Shown in pieces: positions 7,143-44,574 of a DNA stretch of 64,000 bases. Positions within the stretch are counted from its first letter, which is position 1. Every line of letters starts with the position of its first letter. This DNA comes from Branchiostoma lanceolatum (taxonomy: Eukaryota > Chordata > Leptocardii > Amphioxiformes > Branchiostomatidae), in NCBI RefSeq assembly GCF_035083965.1, contig NC_089727.1:16444769-16508768 (forward strand), written 5' to 3'. A model generated the notes under the pieces. It was not told the origin of the DNA, ran no database searches, and worked only from the letters and a program-made list of their open reading frames with translations. The position numbers were made by a program, and so were the translations under genes.

Positions 7143-9440
7143 ATGAGCGGCCGTCACAGCATGTTGTGGACCCACGAGGGGGTTTCCCTGAGTCGTGCCA
7201 TCACCAAGGAGACTCTGGATGCCGTGTTGGATTTTCAGATCCGAGATGACGACATTGTTGTGGCGAGTTTTCCAAAGACAGGTATGAACTTTGGTTTGAT
7301 GTATGCCGATATCTGCAACCTCTGTCGCTTTCAATCTTTCGCGATGCATTTGCAAAATTTAATGCTTTAAACCGAAAAAAACACACACACGGTGTCTGGT
7401 TATCTTATAGCTTGCTATTACTAGTATTAGTATCAGTACCATTCCTGACAGAAGATAGCACACAACATCAACACTGTAACATCTTATACAGCCGATTCAA
7501 CCAATGTTTTTTCAGGAACAAACTGGCTGGCAGAGATCGCCGTTAAGATCCTAAGAGCCGCAGGAAAAACAGACAAAAGCGTGGACTCCATGGAGTTTGG
7601 ACCCATAGAGATGAAGCGACCGACAGCCACGCAGCCTGGCTATATCACGCTCGCAGACATGCCCTCCCCTCGCCTGGTGATGACACACCTGCCGGTCAAG
7701 TTTGCACCGCAAGGGATATCCAAGCCACAGAATAAGGTAATCTCAGAGTACCCAGAAGAAAATACACATGTAGGTGAGTCGTAGGAAACGTACCCTGGTG
7801 CATCTACAAAATTAAATGCTATAGAATGCTGTACTACTTTGTCTATCCCTCTACATACATAAAGCTCCATACGTAGGTGATGACTTACATGTCAGTATAT
7901 TACATATAACAAAGGACGATGAATAGTTTCTTAGTATTCTGTGTATTACATCAACAATGTCTGAAACCCTGATAAGAGAAGCTCAAGATCAAGGTGAGCA
8001 TACTGTTGTACCTATAGGACGTCTGTAGAACGCTCTTGTTTTTGTCGAACTCACCACAGGTAAAAGTGCTGGTGCCGATGAGGAACCCAAAGGACACAGC
8101 TGTGTCGAGGTTCCATTTCATGAAGAAAGTATGGAGATTGATGAACGTAAACATGGAACTGCGCTGGGAAGAGTTTGTGGAGGACTTCAGGAGCGGAATG
8201 GGTCAGTTGTGAAGGCAATTCCAGTGATCATTGACTGGCTAGAACTGTACCGTTTCATTGCATACATATGCATCTTTGCCAAGTACAGTAACTTACGTTT
8301 CTTTGACGGATTTTTCAGCACTGAACATATGTCGAGTATAGGTTGAAACGTGTACATGGACTTCGGGAATTCTGTACTGTAACGTTGTACAGGCTTGGAT
8401 CTAGAGGACTGCTTGTGAGAATACTTTGACACTTGACTTTTACTAACGGTAGTGTGCTATTTTCTTGCGCGGTAGTGTAGTCTCAAAATTTAGCTAAAAT
8501 TCAAATATTTGACAAATCAGACCTCTCCTAGTAACGTGTTTGCAATTGAAATCATCATCTTATTTTCTAATTGGCTTATCCATGCTCCCTTATCTAGTGC
8601 CATTCGGAGACTACTGTGACTGGCTGGTTGGCTGGTTGGAGATGCGTGACGACCCCCACTTCCTCTTTCTTAAGTTTGAGGACATGAAGAAGGTAGGGTA
8701 CAGATATGACTACCTAACCATCATCAAACCCATGCCGATACGTGTTTTGTTACCTGTTGACAGGATATGGGTATGCGCAAAGGAAATTTTCATAGCTAGT
8801 CTTCTGAGTACTCGTATCTTCGGAATATCATAGTCAGTAGTAGGCTTGATGTATTCATGGAACGATTTTCGGCCATAAAACCCATTTTACCCTTGCAGGA
8901 TCTGCTGAGTGCTGTAAAGACCATTGTGGCATTTCTGGAGGTGGATCTGGATGAATCGACCGTCAAAGAAATCGCAGAGGCCAGTACTTTTGACAACATG
9001 AAGGCAGGCCTGGATAATTCGACTATCGCCGAGAGAAGGGGTATAGCCAGGAAAGGTAGGTATCGAAGTCATCGCACTCAATAAGAGAATAAATAATTAA
9101 GAAGTGCTGGCGTGAACATTTGTATCATACCAAACGATTATATGCGAAAAATACCCAAAAAAGATAATAATTCTGTAAAAGATCTGCATAGATACCAGAG
9201 CAATTTTGATTTTTTTATTCAAGCACCTCTCCAGTTACGCTCTTTCGCACTGACAACATAACAATAATTGATGCTGACAGAATACCGTACTTCATTTCAA
9301 ATATTTCTATGTTTTTGTCTGAACTTGCAGGAATTATCGGAGACTGGAAGAACACTTTCTCTTCAGAGGAGAGCGCTGCGTTCGACGCATGGTGTGAGAA
9401 GAAGCTCGGTAGTACGGGCCTTACGTTTGACTTCGAATAA
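7143..9440 (+). CDS. Cytosolic sulfotransferase (SULT family), copy 1
   Basis: Six exons: 7143-7281, 7516-7736, 8060-8201, 8598-8692, 8899-9055 and 9331-9440. All junctions are GT-AG and the phases join into 287 aa, the usual SULT length. Family knowledge: SULTs move sulfate from PAPS to hydroxyl or amine groups of small molecules. Seen here are the 5'-phosphosulfate loop FPKTGTNW (residues ~43-50), the catalytic His in MTHLP, the 3'-phosphate site RNPKDTAVS, and the C-terminal PAPS loop RKGIIGDWKN. The segment after it, NTFSSEES, lacks the TV of the usual dimer motif (KxxxTVxxxE), so dimerisation may differ. An acceptor (CAACAG) six bases before the ATG implies an upstream non-coding exon. 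AATAAA lies near 9789. The substrate cannot be inferred. Confidence 0.93.
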
Positions 9441-16006: not shown

Positions 16007-19000
16007 ATGAATGTACATAGCTGTACATTCACCAAGTCAGATACTGACAAGGACCATGCAGCGCCCATTCCGGGCCAAGACGAGTCGTCCATAGACGGGG
16101 ACAACAACGGGCCTACCGATACGGACGACTACGAACGACCCGTGAATGTTCGCTTTGGTTATAAGGTTCGAGGTACGTCCTGGTCTAGTTGTCATACTAC
16201 AGTCAGGCCACAAAACTGCAACATGCTTACAAGAATTACTGTTCTTAGTGGCAAATGTGCAATTCGTCTACTCTCCAAGCAGAGCACGGGTTTCGGCTGG
16301 TTTTTGACGTGTTTTAGGTGTTTTTGTCGGGCTTTCTACTTTGTATAAAAAAAAAAAAGTAGAAAAACAAAGTAGAAAGCCCGACAAAAACGCCTAAAAA
16401 CACGTCAAAACACAGCCGAAACCCATGCTCTGCTTGGAGAGTACAATTCTTCGCGCTTTGGCATGCCAAATATGTCACGGTACATGTAATGTTATGTCCT
16501 CAGCCGTGTTAGCACACACTTTAGTAGATTAGGCGAGAGGTGAGGTGCACGTGGGCGTCAATCCTAGCCTGGGTGCCATCCGATTACTACCCAGGTTGGC
16601 TCCTGCACTCGCTACCCTGAAAAAAAATCAGGGTACTACCGGGCTCCGACACTAAATTTTCAGGGTAGTGAGTGTAGGAGCCCCGGAAGTAATCGGATGG
16701 AATCCAGGCTACGTCACTCCACTGTGAAGTGAGGAAACTTTAAGTCGTGTAAAGGGCTTTTCGCAAGGGCACAACATCGGTTTCATGTCGGAGGATAGAA
16801 CCAGGATCTCTTGTTTCTGACCAAATGCCGTAACTATTACGCCACACAGCATGCTTGATTAATAAACGCTGTATGAGGTTTCTCTTTCTGACTATTGCAT
16901 ATACATTTTCATCGTTGCGTATTTTGTATGAGATATATTTGATACATAATTTTATATCATGTATCAATATCTGTATTGTTATGACGATTATCTGTTGATT
17001 ATGATGTATCGTTTTTACATTGGAAACGGATCGATCAAGAGTGTGTCTTGCTGGCCCTTTTCTTTTACATTACTTTGTTGTTATAAGGCTGAAATAGATA
17101 AAAACAATCCCATTATGGATTCTAGACAAAAGTGCGTTACAATTGACTGCCTGCAGAAATATTTTCCAAAAATACACATTATATACTGAAGAGAGTTTGA
17201 TGTGACAACGTTACACGTTGGCAAGAAAATGAGTTTTAATGATTAGATTTTGGCCCCCAAGCGGCTTGTTACGGCACTGCAGTGGAACTTCCGGGTTTGA
17301 TATCTCGTGTTCGGGACATGGTCGTGATTTTTGAGTGGTAGATAGCTCTTGGGGAAGGGCATAAGTGGTATAGGTTTGGGCCTCCTAGTGGCTCTTTTGG
17401 AACTGCTGGAGCAGCTTCAGACTTAACTCAAGAGAGGGTTAATGGATGGTCATGATTGTTGGTATGTAGATAGCTTCACTGATGATTTCCATGATATATT
17501 ACATAAGATACCAGTTATGCGAATCCATATCTTATTTGCATAATCAATGAGGAAAGTTTAGACATCCGCTGCATTTCATGATAGGACTCTCAAACATGTG
17601 ACATGTGTAACTGAGAAAGAGAGAAATATTGATAGATATCAACTATGTAAATGAAGACCTCATTTGCATAGTCAAGGAGAAAAAGCTACAACTCATGATG
17701 GGGCTCACGAACCATCTTCATTTTGATATGTAGATAGCTTGAGTGATGTTTTGTTTAACTAGACAATGATAATGAGGAAATTTCAAAAACCTTCTGCATT
17801 CCATGATAGGACCATTCAAATATGTGACATTTGTAACTAAGGAAGAGAACACTGTTGATATATATGTATAGATAGAAAGTATGCAAATGAAGACCAACTT
17901 TGTATAATTCATGAGAAACTACTGTAATTCCATACCGGCAAATGACAGCAATTGCATGCTTGTGGCGTTTAGAAGTTAAGCGAATGTGAACATCGTTGAA
18001 TATAAATTATGCTGATGAGGACATCATTTGCATAATTCATGATACATGCTAGAATATACTTCTGTTATTTGGGTGGAGAAGTTGATCAACTGGTATGATT
18101 CATAATCGATAAGAAGTACTCATCATACATCAGTCATCAAGGTCGAAATCATTTGGCGAAGGTATGTGGTCGTGGAAAATCTAGTTTGTCACACGGTTTT
18201 TGTTGGTTAAGGCAAAAAGGGAAGAGATATTGGACTATGACAGTGATCTAAATGTTATGATTTAGATCTATATGCATTTTGTATATCACATCATAGAGGT
18301 TGCCAGGCAGATATGGACTAAGGGAATGTCTGGTGCAGTTGGCCGACTTCTGTTGGCTTGTGGAGTCCTTGTACTCGTCATCACTGTGATCTGCGTCACC
18401 CAGAACCAACCTGGACAGAAGGTAAGAGCAGGAAGACTTCACACATTACCTTCGCCAGGAAGGATATGTTTTAGGTGCCGTTTGTGGTTTATTGGTTGGT
18501 TAGTTGGTTGGTTGGTTAGTTAGTTTGTTGTTTGGATGGGCGTTTGTTTGGTTGATTGGCTGGTTGGTTGGTTGGTTGGTTAATTGGTTGGTTGGTTGGT
18601 TAGTTTGTTGTTTGGATGGGCGTTTATTTGTTTGTTTGGTTGGTTGGTTGGTTGATTGGCTGGTTGGTTGGTTGGTTGGTTAATTGGTTGGTTGGTTGGT
18701 TGGTTGGTTGGTTGGTTGACTGGCTGGCTGGTTGGTTTCTTTGTTTCTATGACCCTTACTTCTTCCCTCATGAAGAAACATTCAAGCAAACAAACAAACA
18801 AAAAAATGCTGACTGGATCACCAAATGTTACCTCATCCATCGTAATATTTTCCATGATATCAAGGTTGTTCCTGGATTTCAGGAGAACGAAGATGGCGTG
18901 TTGATGGAAGCAAGCATTATTCAGTCAGGCACCAGTACTCCATGGATGATGGAACCCTCCCAGAAGTACAACTCGGTCATCGTTACAAAAGCGGCAGAGT

Positions 19001-22000: not shown

Positions 22001-25000
22001 GAATGCATGTCGTTCTTAGAAAGAAATAGATTTGTCGTCTTCCTTTGTAGCAGAGACATATCATTTGTTCCCGTTTTAATATCGTCTTCCACATTTGTCT
22101 CACAGATGTCGACGAGTGTACAAAGCAGCCCTGTCAACATGGACGCTGTGTGAACCAAGATGGTGGCTACAAATGCACCTGCTCACCTGGATGGACTGGA
22201 CAGAACTGTCAGCAAGGTCAGCACTTTTTTTCAACTAACCATTGGCAAGTGTTTCTACAGTTAATTTGAAATACGGCATGGGTAAGGTCTATGCATGGCA
22301 TATAAACGCTGTAATTCACTGTTTTAATCAGATTTGTTTTCTTTTTCACACAGACATCAATGAGTGTGCTGGAAACACATGCCAACATGGACGCTGTGTG
22401 AACAAAGATGGCGGATACGCCTGTATCTGCTCACCTGGATGGACTGGACAGAACTGTCAGCAAGGTGAGCACTTTTTGTCCAGCCAGTTGATTTAAAATA
22501 TGATATGCAGAAGGCTTATGCATAGCATGTGGAGATTGTGATTCAGTATCATCGCCCTCAAGTTTTGTTTTCTTTCTCACACAGACATCAATGAGTGTGC
22601 AAAGAAACCCTGTCAACATGGACGCTGTGTGAACAAAGATGGCGGATACACCTGTGTCTGCTCTCCCGGATGGACTGGACAGAACTGTCAACAAGGTGAA
22701 TGCATGTCGTACTTAGACTAGAAATACATTTTGTTTTCCTCTGTAGTAAATAATGAGATACTGGGTGTTCCCGTCTTCTAATTTTTTTCCACATTTGTCT
22801 CACAGACATCGGCGAGTGTACAAAGCAGCCGTGTAAACATGGACGCTGTGAGAACAAAGATGGCGGCTACAAATGTACCTGCTCACCTGGATGGACTGGA
22901 CAGAACTGTCAGCAAGGTGAGCACTTTTTGTCAACTTACCAAGTTTTTCTCCAGTTAATTTGAAACATGGCATGATTAGCATATAAACGCTGTAATTCAC
23001 TGTTTTAATCAGATTTGTTTTATTTTTCACACAGACATCAATGAGTGTGCTGGAAAAACATGCCAACATGGACGCTGTGTGAACAAAGATGGCGGCTACA
23101 CCTGTACATGCTCTCCTGGATGGACTGGACAGAAATGTCATCAAGGTCAGCACTTTTTGTCTAGTTTCCAGTTGATTTGAAATATGGTATGAATAAGGCT
23201 TATGCATAGCATGTAAACATTGTTATTCAATGTCATCACCCTGAAGTTTTGCTCTCTTTCTCACACAGACATCAATGAGTGTGACGAGAGACCCTGTCAA
23301 CATGGACGCTGTGTGAACAAAGATGGTGGATACACCTGTACGTGCTCTCCTGGGTGGACTGGACAAAACTGTCAGCAAGGTGAATGCATGTCGTACTTAG
23401 ACTAGAAAAACATTTTGTTTTCCTCTGTAGTAAATAATGAGATACTGGGTGTTCCCGTCTTCTAATTTTTTTTCCAAATTTGTCTCACAGACATCGACGA
23501 ATGTACAAAGCAGCCGTGTAAACATGGGCGCTGTGAGAACAAAGATGGCGGCTACAAATGTACCTGCTCACCTGGATGGACTGGGCAGAACTGTCAGCAA
23601 GGTGAGCACTTTTTGTCAACTTACCAAGTTTTTCTCCAGTTAATTTGAAACATGACATGACTAGAATATAAACGCTCTAATTCACTGTTTTAATCAGATT
23701 TGTTTTATTTTTCACACAGACATCAATGAGTGTGCTGGAAAAACATGCCAACATGGACGCTGTGTGAACAAAGATGGCGGCTACACCTGTACATGCTCTC
23801 CTGGATGGACTGGACAGAAATGTCATCAAGGTCAGCACTTTTTGTCTAGTTTCCAGTTGATTTGAAATATGGTATGAATAAGGCTTATGCATAGCATGTA
23901 AACATTGTTATTCAATGTCATCACCCTGAAGTTTTGCTCTCTTTCTCACACAGACATCAATGAGTGTGACGAGAGACCCTGTCAACATGGACGCTGTGTG
24001 AACAAAGATGGTGGATACACCTGTACGTGCTCTCCTGGGTGGACTGGACAAAACTGTCAGCAAGGTGAATATATGTCGTACTTAGACACCTATTCGTAAT
24101 CAAGACAGACATACTGGGTTTTTCTGTTTTCTCATTTCCTTCCACATTTGTCTCACAAATATCGACGAGTCTTCAGAATGGACTGGACAGAACTGTCACT
24201 GTGTTGCATTCTATATTTATAAAACGTAACAATGGAACGCAATCACCATACGGTAGCACGTGAGTTACCACACTCTGTCAGTCCCAGCCAGCTCGTGTGC
24301 CCTACATGACAAGCTGAGCATCATTACCCCACGTCTGTCGCCATAAACGTCCCAAACTGTCCTCAGCTCTCATCCCAAACTTGGTTATATTCCACTTGAA
24401 AATCGTTACAGCGTGAACCAATAGCTCTCTTTTTAAATTCCATCAACCAGGGGATTGTCAGGTGGGAGCTGGATCATCCTACCGAGGAGCAGTCTCTGTG
24501 ACCAGAACAGGCAAGACGTGTCAACGCTGGGACAGTCAGACACCCCATGACCACACCAGGACACCTGCTAAGTACCCGTCATCCGGACTGGAGCAGAACT
24601 ACTGCCGGAATCCGGACGGTGAATCCGCAGTTTGGTGCTACACCACGGATCCCAGCAAGAGATGGGAGCATTGTGACGTACCAGTCTGTGGTAAGGTCTG
24701 ATTATGAAATCTTTATTGACACAACAAAAGTACAGGGTCTTTAAACCTAGTTCTGTTTTTTGATGTACCCTCATCTGAATCTACTGTCGAATCTGACATT
24801 GACACTTCAATGTTTTCATGCACATCAAACAATAACCTTGGATACCATAAATTTTCTAGTGGGACATAACCATGTTGCGATGGGAGGGGGTAAGAAAAGA
24901 TTACGATGCTTAGCTTGCCATGTGTATGGGAAGGACTGGCTATGGTGTTCGTACTGTATGGTACATAAACGTTACGTTGTTTCGATATATTATCACATAG

Positions 25001-27593
25001 TTTATCGTAACGAAATAACGTTACGTCCCTGCAATCTAACACCTGTTACTGCTCATCCGGATGGGATGGACAACAGATCTGTCAACAAGGTGAATACGCC
25101 TCGACAGACTGGTAATAGATGTGTATTTTTTGTATCTGTATGAGCAACATACTGAGTGTTTCTCTTTTTTAAATTTCTTCCACACTTGTCTCGCAGGTAT
25201 CGACGAGCGTAAAAGGAAGCCGTACCAACATGGACGCTTGCTGGACAAAGATGGTGGGTACACCTGTATCTAGCCTCCCGGATGCACTGGACAGAACTGT
25301 CGGCATTGCGAGCCACGGTTATTTTCTCTTGGTCACATATGTGTGCAATATTACAAGGTCTTTCTTCTTTTTGGGGGGTGGGGGTTCGAGGGTTACTTTT
25401 AGATTTAGAGTTGAATATCAAAATTTGTTAAGTTTACCAATCTTTACAGATTTCCTTTAAATCTTGAGTCCGACAGTCGGAGGTACTCGGGCACCACAAA
25501 CAGACTAGAATCCTTATAAGACTGCAGGCGAGAGAACTGTTACCACGGCTAGATTGGACTATAGATCATTCCAAGAACATGGTGGTCTGTAGAAGCGTCA
25601 CCCAGAGGCAGCTACATGTAATTGTAATGTACCACTTTATGATTGATCCTTACAGGCCAATGTCGCCCTGGGTGGAGCGAATACCGCAACCAGTGCTACA
25701 AGCTGATGAAAGACAAAGTCAGCTGGACTACAGCAAACGCAAAGTGCGAGCGTCTTCGCGCAAACCTGGCATCTGTCAAGGACCAAGGAGAGAACAACTT
25801 CATCAAGGGTCTAATCGTTGGTGGTAGGTAATAAACAGCTTTGTTGCCAGTGCTGAAGGGTGTTCATAGCTCCAAGTTTCTAAGGTTTTATCTTGACATA
25901 AAGACTACACGTGACTCATTTTGTTTCAGTAAACAACGCATATTTCGCTTTTGTTAACTCTCTCTCTCCTGAACAAGAAATGCAGACTGTTTCTTTTGCC
26001 AGCCTGATTTACACTCATTTCAACGGCAACTAGAATAAATACGATCTCGCGTTTTTGCTTTGGTACACCATTCGAAACACATGTAATCATTTTTACATTA
26101 ATTAAGAACGGTATGAAAATGGATCGTGAGCAACGGATAAAGACTACTTAACAGTATTCATCTGTAAAGAAAGCTGACAGATTCAGTAAAGTTGTAGATT
26201 CATAACAGTCGCAGTAAATTCTTGTGAGAAAGCTGCACCGAAATAATCCCACACAAGATGTTATGTTGGCTGATAATACGACTTTATGATGTGTCCCACG
26301 ACTTACGAGAAATTGTAGATATCAAAATTGCTCACTAGACACAACAATCCTATAGCAAAAAGATCACTGTCAAATCAAACTCCATTGCAAGTAAACCTGG
26401 ACATGACTGATAATCACGTTACCATCTGATTGCAGCCCCTAAAGGCCGTGTCGCGTATGTCTGGCTCGGACTGTACAAAGTCGGAAAAAAGTGGAAGTGG
26501 ACGGATGGATCACGGGCCAGCTACACTAACTGGGCTCCCCATGAACCAAACGACAGCTGGTTGTTCGGTGGAGAGAATTGTGGCGGCGTGTACTCTGAGG
26601 TCAGTGTCAGTGGTCATTCATGGAATACTATAAATGCATCCTCCCAGCAGGCCCGATATGGTCGGTTCATTACCTCCCATAGCGGCCCTGCAATTTCCAG
26701 CCTGTGAACTCGCTTCGATCTGGCGACGTCACAGACAAAACAGCTTCAGCCAATCAGAGGGTTTGCTAAAGCTCAAACTCGAGCAAAAGCGAAAAGGACG
26801 CTGTGAAGCTATCAACCAATCAGGTTTCGTCTTACATCGCTAATTTGGGTTCAGAGTAAAAATAATGTTTTTTGTACCAAATAAGGCTGGCTCATTAATT
26901 ATTCATGAGCAACTGTCAATAACGTCGCCAGAAACGAGTTCACAGGCTGGAAATTGCAGGGCCGCTATGGGAGGTAATGAACCGACCATATCGGGCCTGC
27001 TGGGAGGATGTATGAATCTAAATTCCGTCAGTTTTTTTAGACTGGAAAATTACAATAAGGTTTCTTAGGCAACGGTGATTATTTTGTAGTTAAAGTTTAA
27101 AGTTAACCAGGAATGGCTCTTTAAACGGTACATTGAATACCATCGCAATGCTTTACACATTTAATGTTAAAGTATCGAATACTACGTACGTGTATCAGAT
27201 GATGTATTGGTATAAGAAGACCCTTTTACTCGGGATAAAGTAACAGTTGCCAGCAGCATGCTACCAAAAATATGTTAATCGGTCAGTTTGTAGAAAACAC
27301 GCTGTATTGAAGTTGGCTTTTCTCTTGCTTTTCTTACGCAAAAAATATCAATCAAAATCCAGACCTTCTCTGGTCTTTAGAATGTTCAAATGTTTATTAA
27401 TAAAAAGAGGGAAGCTAATGAATATCCAAGTTAGTGGTAGAAAACTGCACAAGGATGACTGACTTTTTTTGTGTGTTTGACTATGTTACAGACCGGAAAG
27501 AAATGGGCTGTCCGCTGGTACAGCGAGCGGGGACAGTGGAACGACAATAACTGCAGCTGGAAATACCCTTACGTCTGCGAGCGTCCAAAATAA
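16007..27593 (+). CDS. Type II membrane EGF-kringle-C-type lectin receptor, gene A
   Basis: Exons: 16007-16172, 18297-18421, 18883-19072, 19940-20032, sixteen EGF exons of 111 bases from 20233 to 24064, then 24451-24690, 25656-25823, 26436-26599 and 27492-27593. All phases join into 1007 aa. The order is acidic tail (1-55), membrane anchor with core [17 protein letters not shown] (~73-90), Ser/Thr-rich stalk (98-160), half EGF, sixteen EGFs (192-783), kringle (784-863), lectin domain (864-1007). There is no signal peptide, and basic residues precede the anchor, so N-in/C-out is inferred. The first exon is joined to the anchor exon by matching phase 1 and by its paralogues upstream of gene B; this is the least certain junction, and a start at 18272 within the anchor exon is the alternative. 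The lectin EPN and WND motifs suggest calcium-dependent binding of mannose-type sugars. I know of no named protein with this order. Confidence 0.82.
16269..16443. mobile_element. Foldback MITE, TACTCTCCAAGCAGAG family
   Basis: The arms are TACTCTCCAAGCAGAG and CTCTGCTTGGAGAGTA. The flanks are GCAATTCG on the left and CAATTCTTCG on the right, a 9-bp duplication with a small deletion in one copy. The paralogous sequence at 31550-31570, 33340-33355 and 35435-35450 runs uninterrupted. It lies in the first intron of receptor gene A. Confidence 0.82.
16565..16711. mobile_element. Foldback MITE, TAGCCTGG family, 9-bp duplication
   Basis: The arms are TAGCCTGGGTGCCATCCGAT and ATCGGATGGAATCCAGGCTA. 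The flanks are CGTCAATCC (16556-16564) and CGTCACTCC (16712-16720), a 9-bp duplication with one mismatch. The paralogous copies near 33465 and 35530 read GGGCGTCACTCCACG without an insertion. Related arms occur at 4317, 4459 and 10668. Confidence 0.85.
16718..16860 (-). repeat. tRNA-derived SINE
   Basis: On the minus strand the A box is TGGCGTAATAG and the B box region is GGTTCTATCC. They are followed by a tail containing CCCTTGCGAAAAGCCCTTTA. The same element follows two of the other acidic-tail exon copies (33478-33605 and 35545-35680), and its tail matches the plus-strand SINE at 59625. The B box is mutated here, so transcription by Pol III is doubtful. Confidence 0.65.
17238..18060. repeat. 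Intronic dispersed repeats, gene A first intron
   Basis: The part at 17238-17440 is another copy of the repeat at 3470-3660. The part at 17460-18060 contains several diverged units with ATTTGCAT(A)A and CCATGATAGGAC blocks, resembling the 127-bp satellite at 60531-62285 and the TTATGCAAATTAG blocks at 19340-19520 and 40555-40720. No coding signal. Confidence 0.45.
18489..18735. repeat. (GGTT)n tetranucleotide repeat
   Basis: An imperfect array of GGTT with interspersed GATTGGCT units lies in the intron between the anchor and stalk exons of gene A. It reads as repetitive WLVG on one strand and NQPT on the other, which is an artefact of composition and not evidence of coding. Confidence 0.9.
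19089..19142. repeat. Perfect 25-bp inverted repeat with 4-base loop
   Basis: CATACCCTAAAGTGTACGTC... is followed after a T loop by its exact complement. The gene B paralogue (about 37675-37710) has only the right-hand AGGGTATGGCTAC part, so the left arm was added in gene A. It sits in the intron just after the stalk exon. Confidence 0.85.
19940..24064 (+). other. EGF exon array of receptor gene A
   Basis: The first exon, 19940-20032, encodes a half EGF with four cysteines. Sixteen full modules follow, each exactly 111 bases and phase 1-1, starting at 20233, 20479, 20697, 20917, 21123, 21346, 21665, 22106, 22354, 22585, 22806, 23035, 23269, 23491, 23720 and 23954. The typical module has the pattern DINEC-x4-C-x4-C-x8-C-x-C-x8-C. 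DxNEC plus [10 protein letters not shown] fits the calcium-binding EGF consensus and the Asx-hydroxylation pattern. The module starting 21123 ends in a GC donor (AAG|GCGAGC); the rest use GT. A remnant of another module lies at about 21597-21625, and a dead one at about 24155-24200 has a mutated acceptor. Confidence 0.92.
22806..24175 (+). repeat. 685-bp tandem duplication of three EGF exons
   Basis: The three exons at 22806, 23035 and 23269 recur at 23491, 23720 and 23954, each displaced by exactly 685 bases. Introns as well as exons are almost identical (for example GTGAGCACTTTTTGTCAACT in both), so this is a very recent unequal-exchange event. It raised the module count by three without changing the frame. 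Confidence 0.9.
24451..24690 (+). other. Kringle exon of receptor gene A
   Basis: A single 240-base phase 1-1 exon encodes 80 residues with six cysteines and the kringle hallmarks [25 protein letters not shown] and WCYTTDP. Kringles are disulfide-rich binding modules, some of which bind lysine. In gene A the module sits between the EGF array and the lectin domain. The clean symmetric exon fits insertion by exon shuffling. Confidence 0.93.
25038..25310 (+). pseudogene. Dead EGF exons between kringle and lectin exons
   Basis: At about 25198-25310 an EGF-like exon keeps [14 protein letters not shown] and an acceptor. It has lost several cysteines (DERKRKPYQ in place of DINECxxxPCQ), contains an in-frame TAG after YTCI, and lacks a donor. 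A shorter EGF scrap lies at about 25038-25090. Gene B still has an intact EGF exon in this position (42206-42316), so gene A lost it. Confidence 0.75.
25656..27593 (+). other. C-type lectin domain exons of receptor gene A
   Basis: Three exons (25656-25823, 26436-26599, 27492-27593) encode a complete long-form lectin domain ending at TAA. Six cysteines are seen (GQC, NQC, AKC, ENC, NNC, YVC). YVWLGL is the usual WIGL equivalent. EPN (in HEPNDSW) and WND (in [10 protein letters not shown]) are the calcium and sugar ligands; EPN normally goes with mannose, fucose or GlcNAc. A foldback element lies in the last intron. Confidence 0.9.
26636..27014. mobile_element. Foldback element with ~70-bp arms in gene A intron
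   Basis: The left arm runs CATCCTCCCAGCAGGCCCGA onward to about 26710. The right arm (about 26940-27014) is its complement. The core at about 26738-26860 (CAGCTTCAGCCAATCAGAGG...) is nearly the same as the core of the element at 50720-51099, yet the arms of the two are unrelated. The matching intron of gene B (after 43700) lacks it. Confidence 0.75.
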
Positions 27594-29046: not shown

Positions 29047-29178
29047 GAGTCACACTGAGCAAAATTCAAACAAGTGCTTCTGAAAAAAGCTGCCATTTTC
29101 GCGTCAATGAAGATTATTTATAGATGGTTAGTTGAGGAGTATGTTATAATGGGATGTGATGTACATCCGTAGCATTTC

Positions 29179-29700
29179 GCTACAAGTCGGGGTACATACG
29201 CTACAAGTCGGGGTACATACGCTACAAGTCGGGGTACATACGCTACAAGTCGGGGTACATACGCTACAAGTCGGGGTACATACGCTACAAGTCGGGGTAC
29301 ATACGCTACAAGTCGGGGTACATACGCTACAAGTCGGGGTACATACGCTACAAGTCGGGGTACATACACTACAGGTCAGGGTACATACGATACAGGTCGC
29401 GATCGGGGTACATACGCTACAAGTCGGGGTACATACAATACAAGTCGGGGTACATACGCTACAAGTCGGGGTACATACGCTACATGTCGGGGTACATACG
29501 CTACAAGTCAGGGTACATACGCTACAAGTCGAGGTACATACACTGTAATTCGGGTTTAATGATGGGTACGCCGGACCTTTAAAACTACTTTGGCTCCTTT
29601 GAAAGGACCATTCAAACGCTACAAGTCGGGGTACATACGCTACAATTCGGGGTACATACGCTACAAGTCGGGGTACATACGCTACAAGTCGGGGTACACA
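29179..29700. repeat. 21-bp minisatellite
   Basis: About 18 tandem copies of GGTACATACGCTACAAGTCG + G (29179-29555), a 60-base spacer, then about four more (29613-29700). Because the unit is a multiple of three and stop-free in several frames, both strands show open frames (LQVGVHT and YVPRLVA repeats). I see no start context, splice or homology to support translation. Confidence 0.95.
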
Positions 29701-31199: not shown

Positions 31200-31466
31200 G
31201 GAACAAGGATCGCAACAAGAGCAGAAAAATGAATGTACCTGGCCGTGCATTCACCAAAACAGAGTCAGATACTGACTCTGGTGGTGCTGATTCTGATGAC
31301 GACCACACCTATCTGGACCTTACGTCGCCAGGCCTTGACAAGGAGGGCAATCCAGCGCCCTTTCCGGGACGAGATGAATCATCCACCGCCGGGGACAACA
31401 ACGGGCCTACCGATACAGACGTCTACGAACGACCCGTGGAGGTTAGCTTTGGTTACAAGGCTCGAG
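31200..31466 (+). CDS. Acidic-tail exon, copy 2 (candidate first exon of gene B)
   Basis: The segment lies between TTGCTAG| and CGAG|GTACGT. The likely start is ATG at 31229 (MNVPGRAF...), giving 79 codons plus one base, phase 1. It encodes a Ser/Asp/Pro-rich tail with SDDDHTYLDLTSP (Tyr28 of the predicted protein) and DVYERPVEV. The phase fits the acceptor of the gene B anchor exon at 36994 and would give ...YKAR-AFARQMW. The YxxL next to an acidic run resembles the hemITAM of vertebrate lectin receptors but has two residues, not one, between acids and Tyr. Three related copies exist (16007, 33014, 35130). Whether this copy is transcribed with gene B is an inference. Confidence 0.55.
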
Positions 31467-31669
31467 GTACGTCCAGGTCTAGTTGTTATACAACAGTCAA
31501 ACCATAAAACTGCAACATGCTTAAAAGAATTACTGTTCACAGTGGCAAATGTGCAGTTCTTCGCACATTGGCACGCCAAATCAGCGTGTGCCCTCATCAG
31601 TGATGACAAGGACATCTTTAATCAACATGAAATTTTAGCTGAAGCTGTAAACTTCTATTAAAATATTCT

Positions 31670-32190
31670 TGTGCTTCTGTATGTGTAGGGATGATGCTTT
31701 TGTAAACCTGGCGTTGTCTTTATGAGAATGTTTTTCATGTTTTGCCCAAGGATATTGTACCATCTCTTTGTTTTGTACGGCTGTTGTTTGAACAGTAAGT
31801 ATTGTAGCCTGCTTTTTGTGTATTTGTAAATTCGTAAAGCTTTCTTTGTTTTGATTCTGTAAATGTTCTCTTATGCTTGTTAATGTTGTTGTGATTAATG
31901 ATATTTGCGTATTTGTACTGATGTATGTATATATTTGTATATGTTCTGATGTTTGTTTCTATACATTTGTTCTCACAAGTTTTTATGATATAATTGTTCG
32001 ATGTGATGTTTATGTGAATCGTTTGATTTTTATTTGTACCTGTAAAGTGGTTACATGTATTTTAATTTGAATGTGTGTGTAAAGAGTGAAGTGTTTTACA
32101 TATCAATATGTTTCATATATACATGTAAATGTTTTCTTTTTGAAATCCATAGAATATGTAAGATATGCAATGAAATTAGACAAGAGGTAA
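31670..32190. other. A/T-rich stretch, no gene recognised
   Basis: T- and GT-rich sequence with low-complexity open frames. No domain, splice or RNA signal that I can support. It may be an old retrotransposon 3' region. Confidence 0.35.
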
Positions 32191-32193
32191 GTG

Positions 32194-32710
32194 TTAAAGG
32201 CATCCAGAGCATTTTATGAGGCTTGAAACTTGAATTAGAAACATCCAATTTCTAGTCATTCCTACACATAATAAGTTTCAATAACACTTTGCCATTACAT
32301 GTCGACAATAAAGGAGCAAAGATACGATGTCGTTGTGTGATGAGAACTGATAGAAAATCCAAACTCTAATAGCTATATAGACTGATCCTGACTGTCCATC
32401 ACAATTAGCGGTTCGACCAATGAGAGAGTGACTGCATGTCCGTCAAATATTTGCATTTTTATGTTTTAATTTTGCATTTCTACGTTTTGACGGAGGTGGG
32501 CGGGGCTATGGTATCTGTCTATTTACACGAGGCGCGTGTAACTAAAAGATCACCATGTATCTTATTTTAGTGCCGCCTTTGAGCACTTTTGAAAAGAAAT
32601 CTGCACGCAAATGTGGTAAACAGTGGCATTGAATGTCAATTTCATAAAGATGACAGCAACTAGCATATTTCCACTTTTCAAGCCTCATAAAATGCTCTGG
32701 GTGCCTTTAA
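32194..32710. mobile_element. 517-bp element with 35-bp TIRs and TTAA borders
   Basis: The left end TTAAAGGCATCCAGAGCATT is mirrored by AATGCTCTGGGTGCCTTTAA; the match continues to TTTTATGAGGCTTGAAA. Both borders carry TTAA, which fits a TTAA target duplication as in piggyBac-type elements. There is no coding capacity. Confidence 0.7.
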
Positions 32711-32719
32711 ACTTAAACC

Positions 32720-33010
32720 ACAGGGAAGAAAAACCCTGCACAGAAACCCAGGGAAGACATCCCTGCACAGAAGTCCTAGGGAAGAAACCCTAGCACAGAA
32801 AATCTAGGGGGGATGAAACACCCCTGTCAAAGTCCTAGGGAGCACACCCTAGCCAAAAAAGCCAGTGGGAATGGCCCTGTAGATAAATGTAACTAGGGAG
32901 CACACCCTACCAAAAAAAAGGCAGTGGGACCCCTGCAACAATATGTAACTGTGTATATCTGTGGAATTTTAAATGTAAATGTACTGTTATGTTATGTTAT
33001 GTTATGAAAA
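32720..33010. repeat. Short-period CCTAGGG-rich repeats ending in (TTATG)n
   Basis: Imperfect units such as AAGTCCTAGGGA..ACCCTAG repeat every ~35-45 bases, followed by a (TTATG) tail and an A run. This runs straight into the ATG of acidic-tail exon copy 3 at 33014. A pentanucleotide tail like this is common at LINE 3' ends, so a retrotransposon end is the best guess. Confidence 0.45.
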
Positions 33011-33013
33011 AAA

Positions 33014-33251
33014 ATGAATGTACCTGGCTGTGCATTTACCAAAACAGAGTCAGATACTGACTCTGGCGGTGCTAATCCTGATGACGACCACACCTATCTG
33101 GACCTTACGTCGCCAGGCCTTGACAAGGAGGGCAATCCAGCGCCCTTTCCGGGACGAGATGAATCATCCACCGCCGGGGACAACAACGGGCCGACCGATA
33201 CAGGAGTCTACGAACGACCCGTGGAGGTTAGCTTTGGTTACAAGGCTCGAG
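33014..33251 (+). CDS. Acidic-tail exon, copy 3 (candidate first exon of gene B)
   Basis: ATG at 33014 opens 79 codons plus one base, ending at CGAG|GTACGT, the same phase 1 donor as copy 2. The protein starts MNVPGCAFTKTESDTDSGG and keeps PDDDHTYLDLTSP. It differs from copy 2 at only a few residues (for example GVYERP for DVYERP). The upstream splice acceptor found in copies 1 and 2 is replaced by the (TTATG)n/A tail, so if used, it must be reached from its own promoter. A SINE follows at 33478. Duplicate or alternative first exon is the favoured reading; a non-functional copy is possible. Confidence 0.5.
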
Positions 33252-33477
33252 GTACGTCCAGGTCCAGTCATTATACTACAGTCAAACCACAAAACTGCAA
33301 CATGCTTAAAAGAATTACTGTTCATAGTGGCAAATGTGCAGTTCTTCGCACATTGGCACGCCAAATCAGCGCGTGCCCTCATCAGTAACAGTTCTAGGAT
33401 ACACTTAAGACAACAGATTAGCCCAAGGACAATATCCTTGATTAGCCGAGAGGCCTGGTGGGCGTCACTCCACGTTG

Positions 33478-33605
33478 TTTGAGGAAGTTTGAGTCGTGTA
33501 CAGTGCCTCTCGCAAGGGCACATCATCGGGGCATGTCTGAGAATCGAACCAGGACCTCTTGGTTCTGACTAAACGCCGTAACTATTACACCACAGAGCAT
33601 GCTGA
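33478..33605 (-). repeat. tRNA-derived SINE
   Basis: The minus strand carries a B box GGTTCGATTCTC, an upstream A-box-like GTGTAATAGTTACGG, and the tail GCCCTTGCGAGAGGCACTGT. It is the same element as at 16718 and 35545, in each case about 230 bases downstream of an acidic-tail exon, so it was copied with that exon. Confidence 0.68.
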
Positions 33606-33802
33606 ACAAACACTGTCTTAGGTTTATGATAATTATCTTTATATCTATTGTATATACATTTTCATTGTTGTGTATTTCATATCGTTATATTATCATCTAT
33701 CAATATTTGTATTGTTATGATGAGTTTGTCTAGAATCCAAAGTATCATGTAGATTAGACTATTGGTTTATTTCAAAATCATTGCTTAAGTCAGCCAGAAA
33801 AT

Positions 33803-35136
33803 GTGACATTAGACCGTCACTCACTAGTTAAAGACCTACATAGCAAAGATGATATTCAGCCTGATAATGTAGAAAAATATCTATCAGACATAGCCTTAGA
33901 TAATATACTTACAGATTATGAGAAAAATGATATAGATAAACCAATTACCTTCAAAGAATGTGAGCAAGCTCTGAATGAAATGAAAAATAACAAAGCCATT
34001 TTTGGAATTTATCAGGGTCCCTAGTGCATAAATACTTTTTGAGGGTTTCCAAAGCAAAAACAATAGCTCATTCACAAAGAACAGCTTTCCTAAAATTATT
34101 ACATAAGAAAAATGAATTACATCTTTTGAAGAATTGGAGACCTATAAGCCTTCTAAATTGTGAATACAAAATGATAGCTTTTACCCTAGCTAATAGAGTG
34201 AAAAAGGTACTTCCAAAACTTATAAACCAAAGTCAAACAGCATATATCAAAGGAAGCTTCATTGGATAAAATATAAGAATCATAAATTACTATTTTATGC
34301 AAAATGTGAAAGAAAGACTTGTGCTTTATCATTCTTAGATTTTGAAAAAGCCTTTGATTCTGTAAATAGAGATTTCATGTACAAAACTCTTCACAAATTT
34401 AACTTTGGTCCAGCATTTATAGATTGGATAAAAGTATTGTATACGGATACATGCTGCAATATATTGAATAATGGCTGGATATCAGAACCCATAGAATTAA
34501 ACCGAGGTATAAGACAGGGTTGCCCATTATCATGTTTGCTGTTTATATTAGTGACAGAAATTATGGCCACTAAGATAAGGAAATCTAAAGAAATAAATTC
34601 GATTTTAGTTCCACATAATGAGGGTAGTGCAGAAATAAAAATAAGCCAGGTAGCTGATGACACAACATTAATTCTAGCAAATGGACATTTAATAGTAAAT
34701 GCTTTAAGAGTTATAACTGAATCTAGTAAGGTAGCAGGAACTAAGCTTAATAAGACTAAAACCAGGCTAATTGTGGATAGATGTGTGGGAGAAAAATGAT
34801 AGAAAGATTCCAGACCAATTAAAGCACTTGGGATGTACTTTGGCCACAGCCCAAGTGTAATTGACCTCTTAAACTGGGAAAAGAAAATAGAGAAGCTAAA
34901 GAACACCCTTAATTTGTGGAGAGGCAGAAAACTAACCCTTTATGGTAAAGTAATAGTTACTAAACAACTTGCATTGTCCAAACTAATTTATAATTTCATT
35001 GATATTGATACCCCAGAATGGGCGATAAAGGAAATAGAAAAGGTATTGTGGAAATATCTTTGGAATGGTAAACCAGATAAGATCTCTAGAAATCGTATAA
35101 TTGGCGATTACTGTGATGGTGGAATAAAAATGGTTG
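33803..35136 (+). mobile_element. Decayed L1/Tx1-type LINE reverse transcriptase
   Basis: Reverse-transcriptase motifs lie in order but in three frames with stops: KNWRPISLLNCEYK (34124 on), FLDFEKAFDSVNRDF (motif A, 34332 on), RGIRQGCPLSCLLF (motif B), QVADDTTLI (motif C), then the L1/Tx1-type thumb region LWRGRKLTLYGKVIV and WKYLWNGKPDKISRN. There is a frame change between 34024 and 34269 and a double stop (TGATAG) at 34797. The endonuclease domain and 3' end are missing. It ends abruptly at GGIKMVDVK, where it is fused in frame to acidic-tail exon copy 4. It is not able to move on its own. Confidence 0.85.
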
Positions 35137-35346
35137 ATGTCAAAACAGATACTGACTCTGGGGGTGCTGATTCTGATGACGACCACACCTATCTGGACCT
35201 TACGTCACCAGGCCTTGACAAGGAGGGCAATCCAGCGCCCTTTCCGGGACGAGATGAATCATCCACCGCCGGGGACAACAACGGGCCTACCGATACAGAC
35301 GTCTACGAACGACCCGTGGAGGTTAGCTTTGGTTACAAGGCTCGAG
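35130..35346 (+). CDS. Acidic-tail exon, copy 4, fused to LINE sequence
   Basis: From about 35140 this matches copies 2 and 3 (TDTDSGGADSDDDHTYLDL onward) and ends at the same CGAG|GTACGT donor, phase 1. The original start MNVPG... is gone. The junction lies within AAAACAGA, so the preceding LINE codons MVDVK are in frame and supply an ATG at 35130. The result would be a 72-codon tail with five retrotransposon-derived residues. It is the copy nearest to the gene B anchor exon (36994), at a distance similar to the first intron of gene A. Use of this start is an inference. Confidence 0.5.
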
Positions 35347-35544
35347 GTACGTCCAGGTCCAGTCATTATACTACAGTAAGACCACAATACTGCAACATGC
35401 TTAGAAGAATTACTGTTCACAGTGGCAAATGTGCAGTTCTTCGCACATTGGCACGCCAAATCAGCGTGTACCCTCATCAGTGACAGTTCTAGGATACACT
35501 TAAGACAATAGATTAGCCGAGAGGTCTGGTGGGCGTCACTCCAC

Positions 35545-35680
35545 GTTGTTGTGAGGACGTTTGAGTCGTATACGGTGCCTCTCGCAAGGCCACATCATCG
35601 GGGCATGTCTGAGAATCGAACCAGGACCTCTTGGTTCTGACCAAACGCTGTAACTATTACACCACACAGCATGCTTAACA
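35545..35680 (-). repeat. tRNA-derived SINE
   Basis: Same element as at 33478 and 16718, with B box GGTTCGATTCTC and tail TGGCCTTGCGAGAGGCACCG on the minus strand. It sits about 200 bases after acidic-tail exon copy 4. Confidence 0.65.
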
Positions 35681-36071
35681 AACGCTGTATTAGATTTATT
35701 GTAACTTTATGTCTTTTGTATATACGTTTTCATTGTTGTGTATTTCATATCGTTATATTATCATCTATCAAAATTTGTATTGTTATGATGATGATGTGAC
35801 GATTATGATGTATCGTGTTTTTTTTTTAAATTGGAAAGGGGCCGTGCCGCCCCTGTCATGTTACATTACTTTGTTGTTGCAAGGCTGAATTAGATCAAGA
35901 CAATCTCATTATGAATTCTAGACAACAGGGCGTTACAATTGAGTGCCTGCAGAAAGCGAAAGAAAGGTGTTTGAAGTAAATTCAGGCTACCCCATAGGCC
36001 AAATGATATTGATACGTATGAAACTCTGTGAACATTGGTAATGTCGGCGCACATCACAACAAGCACACAAA

Positions 36072-36109
<38 letters not shown>

Positions 36110-36182
36110 CACGTGCACACACACATACACACACACACACACATACACACACACACACACATACATACACACACACACACTA
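36072..36182. repeat. (CA)n microsatellite
   Basis: CA dinucleotides interrupted by TATATACACG and CATACA. Open frames across it on both strands are compositional. Confidence 0.95.
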
Positions 36183-36547
36183 ACACACTCAAAAATACAA
36201 TCCTCCAATTTTCAAGAAAGTTATAATCGCGGAGTCACAGTACAGCACATCAAATAGTTGGGCTAGAACGACTACGTTTTTTTCTTCTTTTCTTCCAAAT
36301 CTTTATTCAAAGTGGCTCTATTCTTATGAAAATCAAATATGACTTATTGTTGTAATGTACTCTAATATTGTTGTGCTTTAATGTTTGAATATTCAACATC
36401 TTGAACCACACCGAGACGAGAAGACATTGCTGTCTTTAAGTTCGAATCTAAATAAGATTTTGTTTCTTGGATTTCCGTTTGTCCGTTGGCGAAGTTGAGA
36501 ACGACATAAAGGACTATGATCATAGTAATGTTGGTTTATGTAGGCTT

Positions 36548-36640
36548 AATGCATTCTTACGAGCGTAGCGTGCGTATTCCAGTAGTTAGTGACCCTGCCG
36601 TCGGACCAAGAAGCCGTGAGTTTGAATCCCCGCACGTTAC
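36548..36640 (+). repeat. tRNA-like SINE fragment
   Basis: The B-box-like GTGAGTTTGAATCCCC (near 36615-36630) follows a weak A-box-like stretch near 36580. There is no complete cloverleaf. It is probably a degenerate SINE head. Confidence 0.35.
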
Positions 36641-36679
36641 TGGAAAGGGTTGCAGTTTTGGAGGACGGGACATTAACCC

Positions 36680-36807
36680 TGGCCTCTACCAGGCCCCGTC
36701 TTATCGAAAATGGAGCTTCACTGTATAGCGGACTACCCTGTATAGCGGACTACCTTGGCCGATTTCTACTATTTTCCCAGCGATAGGACGGGGCCTGGCA
36801 GAGGCTA
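36680..36807. mobile_element. Foldback MITE, CTACCAGGCCCC family, 9-bp duplication
   Basis: The arms TGGCCTCTACCAGGCCCCGT and ACGGGGCCTGGCAGAGGCTA face each other across GGCCGATTTCTACTATTTTC. The flanks are CATTAACCC (36671-36679) and CATCAACCC (36808-36816), a 9-bp duplication with one mismatch. Same family as 57981-58201; inner block shared with 2432-2592. Confidence 0.82.
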
Positions 36808-36993
36808 CATCAACCCGTGGTCCACTGTTCATTGTGCTTGTCAAAAAGAGCCAGTGGAATTTCCTAGGTGCAATGAACCTGTAAGGACGGTGCATAGCGT
36901 CTGGCTTGACTCTTCTCTGTCCCGACCAGTGGCCGAAGAGTAGCTCTTCGGTAAGCTAAACTGGTTTGAGATCAATATTACCTTTTTTCGCAG

Positions 36994-44574
<7,581 letters not shown>

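Follow-up and report, generated by a model that had tools for sequence, protein, structure and literature searches.

An acidic YxxL tail on a predicted type II lectin receptor of Branchiostoma lanceolatum: likeness to the hemITAM and a possible sorting signal

Introduction

Receptors with a hemi-immunoreceptor tyrosine-based activation motif (hemITAM) fit the consensus DGYxxL variably; the tyrosine is residue 7 except in Dectin-1, with a set spacing from the membrane (PMC3819593). Syk is thought to bridge two such tails, and the NKp80 motif is weakened by Glu5 and Arg6 (PMC3819593). In Dectin-1 the motif is preceded by DEDG (PMC11624271), and activation requires the Gly at −1 relative to the tyrosine; its replacement by Ile in Dectin-1, or by Ala in CLEC-2, impaired signalling, and an Ile at this position restrains DNGR-1, where Syk coupling is still present (PMC12669754). 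Here, we describe two tandem sister genes, A and B, both on the + strand of a 64,000-nt stretch of the lancelet Branchiostoma lanceolatum (contig NC_089727.1, positions 16,444,769 to 16,508,768), which is referred to as the window. Gene B is predicted to encode a lectin receptor with DDDHTYLDL in its tail, and a sequence-only reading had proposed a hemITAM-type receptor, by descent or convergence. The reading tentatively preferred here is that gene B encodes a type II lectin receptor in which YLDL would serve mainly as a YxxPhi sorting or uptake signal, one that phosphorylation may switch.

Architecture of gene B

Gene B spans 31229..44574 (+) and is modelled as 12 exons, with 11/11 introns GT-AG, matching phases and an open protein of 576 residues. 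The order is acidic tail, anchor, stalk, epidermal growth factor-type (EGF) repeats, kringle, a further EGF and a C-terminal C-type lectin domain (CTLD):

31229..31466 (+): tail exon (copy 2), 79 codons plus 1 base, phase 1, with an open frame and a GT donor
31295..31321 (+): DDDHTYLDL of copy 2, residues 23–31
36994..37115 (+): anchor exon, 19-residue hydropathy up to 2.57, at residue 93
37438..37663 (+): stalk exon, with a 10-residue insertion relative to gene A that contains Cys160
38860–38952, 39239–39349, 39476–39586 and 39998–40042 (+): EGF-type exons, the final one short
41206..41445 (+): kringle exon
42206..42316 (+): EGF exon after the kringle
42862–43020, 43528–43700 and 44473–44574 (+): CTLD exons, with EPN at 522, WND at 559 and the stop at 44574

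The splice join from acidic exon to anchor exon, on which the sequence-only reading depended, is predicted to be in phase for copy 2: the donor CGAG/gtacgt after 31466 (phase 1) is in frame with the acceptor gcag/CGTT at 36994. Pfam matches are to kringle (E 1e-26), Lectin_C (E 3.9e-18, profile positions 2–107 of 107, near full-length) and EGF_CA (E 6.5e-16), plus EGF repeats; a Pfam search of residues 1–195 returned no family.

Hydropathy windows of 19 residues reaching at least 1.6 start solely at residues 88–99, and the top window outside residues 75–115 is 0.89, so the protein has a single hydrophobic stretch. With the CTLD at the C-terminus, the protein most naturally reads as type II. 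The open model, the one hydrophobic stretch and the C-terminal CTLD together leave this single-pass topology well supported as a prediction, the orientation being one that we infer. The proposed layout of N-terminal cytoplasmic tail, type II anchor and C-terminal lectin domain is thus carried by an open, phase-consistent model. In addition, Cys160 of the stalk is a possible dimer link.

The lectin domain

WND is a motif of the CTLD calcium site. It occurs in gene B together with EPN, a mannose-type motif (PMC11624271). Among the best 60 of 206 PDB matches to the gene B CTLD, the leading ones are LY75, an IgY receptor, PLA2R, MRC2 and MRC1, and Dectin-1 and CLEC-2 are absent from these 60; a separate listing at 1e-12, of 18 rows, agrees on the mannose-receptor group. 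Whole-chain scores sum several CTLDs and favour multi-CTLD chains; the best single-CTLD chain among the matches listed is 9qy1 (MRC2), at 5.1e-17. The mannose-receptor group is known for uptake, and Dectin-1 and CLEC-2 are not known to carry the EPN/WND set. Descent from the Dectin-1 cluster, or natural killer type lectin receptors, would call for a CTLD closest to that group and without EPN/WND; by motif and by the PDB matches listed, the gene B domain departs from this.

Given these motifs and the resemblance to mannose-receptor-group chains among the matches listed, descent from Dectin-1 or CLEC-2, one of the two origins first proposed, was set aside as unsupported. The start of the gene B CTLD (GPGWTEYSNHY) is without two cysteines that are present in gene A, which we take to be the pair of a long-form CTLD.

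The tail motif

The tail of copy 2 around the motif is ADSDDDHTYLDLTSPG. The tyrosine is residue 28, with Thr at −1, His at −2 and acids at −3 to −5; the acids of DEDGY end at −2, and the one-residue difference in spacing noted earlier is real. The tail has three tyrosines (Tyr28, Tyr66 and Tyr76), of which only the first forms a Yxx[LI], namely YLDL. DDDHTYLDL was located in tail-exon copies 2, 3 and 4, as had been claimed (31295–31321, 33080–33106 and 35175–35201). The numbering as Tyr28 holds for copies 2 and 3 and lapses for copy 4, which has no native start.

A scan of 809 six-frame open reading frames (ORFs), each 40 residues or longer and together 50,867 residues, gave three matches to a loose acidic-YxxL pattern, every one in a tail-exon copy. 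When the 80-residue tail was shuffled 200,000 times, three acids followed by 0–2 residues and Yxx[LIVMF] arose in 0.9%, a figure that flatters the likeness since the pattern was defined post hoc, with the motif already known. Yxx[LI] arose in 10.6% and Yxx[LIVMF], that is YxxPhi, in 35%. For [DE]3-G-Y-x-x-[LI], the strict form, which the gene B tail lacks, the figure was 0.013%. The likeness of the tail to a hemITAM thus somewhat exceeds chance.

Relatives of the tail were sought in several ways. The 89 N-terminal residues had zero matches among PDB sequences at E up to 10; viral contigs searched with the 195-residue tail–anchor–stalk protein gave three pattern matches and zero relatives; the peptide TYLDLTSPG had no literature match; and no lancelet receptor of this kind was seen in the titles and abstract openings of the literature matches listed.

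With regard to class, gene B has the single cytoplasmic YxxL of a hemITAM, preceded by DDD one residue further from the tyrosine than hemITAM acids. The consensus DGYxxL, with an acid at −2 and Gly at −1, is replaced by HTYLDL, and instead of Tyr7 at a set membrane distance there is Tyr28, with hydrophobic windows from 88–99. As it departs from both the consensus and the position rule, gene B is not filed as a hemITAM; it has the likeness and has not earned the label. Two other classes were rejected. An immunoreceptor tyrosine-based activation motif (ITAM) requires two YxxL 6–8 residues apart, and gene B has one; the inhibitory motif (ITIM) requires L/V/I/S at −2, where Tyr28 has His (both PMC3819593).

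The tail may nevertheless work like an atypical hemITAM, reached by convergence: Src-family kinases would phosphorylate Tyr28, and two tails would engage a Syk-type tandem SH2 protein in an activating manner. In its favour, gene B is predicted to be a type II lectin receptor whose N-terminal tail has an acidic triplet ahead of its sole YxxL, and the loose pattern is found in few shuffles. Accepted members also vary, NKp80 having ERYxxL and DNGR-1 having EEEI before a tyrosine that is Syk-coupled, which makes convergence the more possible. Furthermore, a Syk-like gene and SHARK occur in invertebrates (PMC10253181), hemITAMs have been reported in allorecognition proteins of Botryllus and Hydractinia (PMC12065747), and the Cys in the stalk insertion could link a dimer. 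Against it stand Thr in place of the Gly at −1, whose substitution impaired Dectin-1 and CLEC-2 (PMC12669754), His at −2, Tyr28 instead of 7, and a sister gene that is missing the block. On balance this account is somewhat unlikely, and a weaker or sorting-type output would be the more natural prediction. Of the hemITAM-type receptor first proposed, an acidic YxxL in a type II lectin tail survives; Thr at −1, acids from −3, Tyr28 and the sister gene without the block count against the rest.

Sister gene A

Gene A starts at 16007, and its last lectin exon stays open between 27492 and the stop at 27593. The model, one among 48 variants that stay open, comprises 23 exons and the beginning of the final one, and requires a GC donor after 21233. 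Two exons bear on the tail of gene B:

16007..16172 (+): tail exon of gene A (copy 1), without the 63-nt DDDHTYLDL block; YERP and FGYK are kept
18297..18421 (+): anchor exon of gene A, 25/40 aligned residues identical to gene B

Aligned to copy 2, the gene A tail lacks SGGADSDDDHTYLDLTSPGLD, 63 nt; the absence of the motif from copy 1 goes unmentioned in the sequence-only reading. In copy 2 both edges of this in-frame block are flanked by TGAC. A 63-nt deletion could be placed in 175 ways within the exon of copy 2; only five of these have an edge repeat of at least 4 nt, the observed one included, and this rarity favours a loss in gene A, which is probably likelier than a gain in gene B. The tail exons measure 166 nt in gene A and 238 nt in gene B, and the three indels between them (6, 63 and 3 nt) all keep the frame, whereas single-base gaps occur directly 5′ of the ATG; the pattern supports 16007 and 31229 as predicted starts.

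Other features of gene A were noted. Its EGF exons are far more numerous than those of gene B, and 22835–23507 and 23520–24198, which each match gene B 39041–39746, look like a fresh tandem unit. One inverted repeat (16269–16443, 84% over 176 aligned bases) lies directly 3′ of the tail exon and another (26634–27013, 91% over 104) follows the second lectin exon. A minisatellite of 21-nt period lies upstream of gene B at 29166–29700. Elsewhere in the window, 8800–9081 has a weak sulfotransferase match (21.9 bits, cut-off 22), and similar ORFs at ~7.4, 8.8, 11.6 and 13.3 kb suggest, by eye, a tandem pair.

Tail-exon copies

Downstream of copy 2 lie two further tail exons and a piece of a long interspersed nuclear element (LINE):

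33014..33251 (+): tail exon copy 3, ATG and donor retained, 5′ flank replaced
33758..35141, outer limits approximate (+): broken LINE piece, RVT_1 in 34197–34796 (E 9e-22)
35146..35346 (+): tail exon copy 4, its 5′ part cut off where the LINE adjoins, in the frame of the LINE ORF

Copies 2 and 3 are 96.7% identical, with 8 differences in 239 nt (the compared exon end extends one base into the intron) that affect 7 codons, 4 of them residue-changing (R6C, D21N, S22P and D64G in copy 3). Copies 2 and 4 are 99.0% identical (2 differences in 198 nt, both silent), and copies 3 and 4 are 96.5% identical (7 in 198 nt). The three are recent duplicates and were counted as one observation; at 96–99% identity the common tyrosine carries little weight, and three conserved copies as a sign of selection are ruled out by recent duplication.

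The surroundings suggest how the copies arose. The 5′ flank of copy 2 is common to gene A (48/56 aligned bases). Copy 3 matches copy 2 from 4 bases 5′ of the ATG onwards, with no gene A-type flank, and copy 4 starts within the exon, adjoining the broken LINE at a common CAAAACAGA, with its start codon lost. On the other side, the gene A downstream intron 16712–17159 matches 35534–35955 after copy 4 (75.5%) and, less fully, 33463–33723 after copy 3 (74%). One ancestral exon would have been duplicated, its original upstream surroundings staying with copy 2 and its downstream ones with copy 4. Of the three, copy 2 is most likely to be the functional exon. The differing surroundings also speak against a simple assembly or allele artefact. 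The three exons, treated as equivalent in the sequence-only reading, are thus not so, with the 5′ flank of copy 3 replaced and copy 4 truncated at the LINE junction; on account of the truncation, copy 4 was also rejected as a first exon of the usual kind.

A LINE ATG at 35130 leaves the frame open into copy 4. The open frame 34803–35483 runs from the reverse-transcriptase piece directly into this copy, a possible exon–LINE fusion or chance. In the intron after copy 2, 32188–32715 resembles a miniature inverted-repeat transposable element, with ~40-bp inverted ends flanked by TTAA, presumably a piggyBac-type signature.

A fuller scenario joins these points: a convergent atypical hemITAM in a non-vertebrate EGF–kringle lectin receptor, the sister gene having lost just the signalling block and the duplicated tail exons being available as alternatives at the 5′ end of transcripts, one of them using a start codon that the LINE supplies. 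It is rather unlikely as a whole. If true, A and B would be paired in nature as a signalling and a silent receptor whose ectodomains are related.

Changes private to one copy, counted over 197 nt of exon and 134 nt of intron, number 0 and 5 in copy 2, 5 and 2 in copy 3, and 1 and 5 in copy 4; a single exon site differs in all three. Pairwise, copies 2 and 4 differ at 2/198 exon and 10/133 intron positions (Fisher p 0.004), and the two other pairs gave p 0.41 and 0.58. Such figures are compatible with copies 2 and 4 being constrained or subject to gene conversion and copy 3 being relaxed, although the numbers are low and the comparison was chosen after looking.

Weighing a possible sorting signal

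In the preferred sorting reading, the head would bind a sugar-bearing ligand, and YLDL, which we take to fit the YxxPhi consensus, would act beside the acidic cluster as a sorting or uptake signal. Phosphorylation of Tyr28 could convert it into an SH2 dock, and gene A, a sister receptor without the block, would differ in trafficking or signalling. The receptor itself is favoured because the 576-residue model is intact, with its domains, one anchor and A/B exon indels that keep the frame. Sorting is favoured because the tail departs from hemITAMs in the residues at −1 and −2 and in where the tyrosine lies, together with the mannose-receptor-group matches of the CTLD among those listed.

Several points weigh against this reading. 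YxxPhi is cheap, being present in 35% of tail shuffles, and a plain signal of this type would not need an acidic triplet. Sorting, expression and phosphorylation of the tail are predictions. In addition, tail evolution between A and B appears loose, which speaks against strong constraint: over 54 common codons, nonsynonymous and synonymous divergence (dN, dS) are 0.13 and 0.25 by NG86, and 0.16 and 0.16 by YN00, and the tail exon (144/166 aligned bases identical) is no more alike than its intron flank (84/95). The tail-exon flanks have 86–89% A/B identity, against 68–81% for longer blocks of the other A/B introns compared. Further exons seem likewise loosely held, with NG86 dN/dS of 0.27/0.36 for the anchor, 0.15/0.36 for the stalk, 0.09/0.41 for EGF1, 0.15/0.19 for the kringle, 0.09/0.18 for CTLD1 and 0.09/0.05 for CTLD2.

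These data would also suit a YxxL without any signalling role that arose incidentally in an acidic tail under loose constraint. Here, YxxL appears in 10.6% of shuffles, the near-identical copies give no independent conservation, sister gene A manages without the motif, and exon and flank diverge alike. This explanation is nonetheless unlikely: the exons of copies 2 and 4 are less changed than their introns (0 and 1 in 197, against 5 and 5 in 134), a pattern that gene conversion could mimic, and the acidic-triplet form is rarer, at 0.9%.

YERP, with Tyr66, is retained in 4/4 tail-exon copies of the window, and Crk prefers YxxP. Phospho-Tyr28, or the more lasting Tyr66, might recruit a different SH2 protein, for instance a phosphatase or a Crk-type adaptor. 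Core Y-x-x-I/L/V motifs, described as of unknown function, also occur in Botryllus FcoR (PMC12065747), whereas the His at −2 of Tyr28 is at odds with the L/V/I/S of an ITIM (PMC3819593). Such docking is rather improbable.

Motif and receptor are sound predictions from sequence. If YxxL works, single-tyrosine lectin signalling would have arisen outside the vertebrate Dectin-1 cluster, and gene A is a natural control; if it is idle, it is a warning against calling a short acidic YxxL a hemITAM.

Comparison with known systems

The mannose-receptor group (LY75, PLA2R, MRC2 and MRC1) provides the best PDB matches to the gene B CTLD (best 60 of 206). Its members are multi-CTLD chains and differ from gene B in topology.

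Outside the vertebrates, Botryllus FcoR and Hydractinia Alr have hemITAM or core YxxL/I/V motifs, but the FcoRs have a type I topology, carry Ig and sushi domains and are non-lectin (PMC12065747). Botryllus BsCD94-1 is a type II lectin-like receptor (PMC3322459).

CLEC-1 (MelLec) has YSST instead of YxxL and is not known to have EGF or kringle domains. Its tail, like that of gene B, combines three acids (DDD) with a motif that contains a tyrosine, and its signalling is described as uncharacterised (PMC11624271).

The hemITAM receptors Dectin-1, CLEC-2, DNGR-1, NKp80 and NKp65 share with gene B the type II anchor, the N-terminal, acid-preceded single YxxL and the C-terminal CTLD. Gene B differs from them in the EGF and kringle domains that separate its anchor from the CTLD, and in having EPN/WND within the CTLD.

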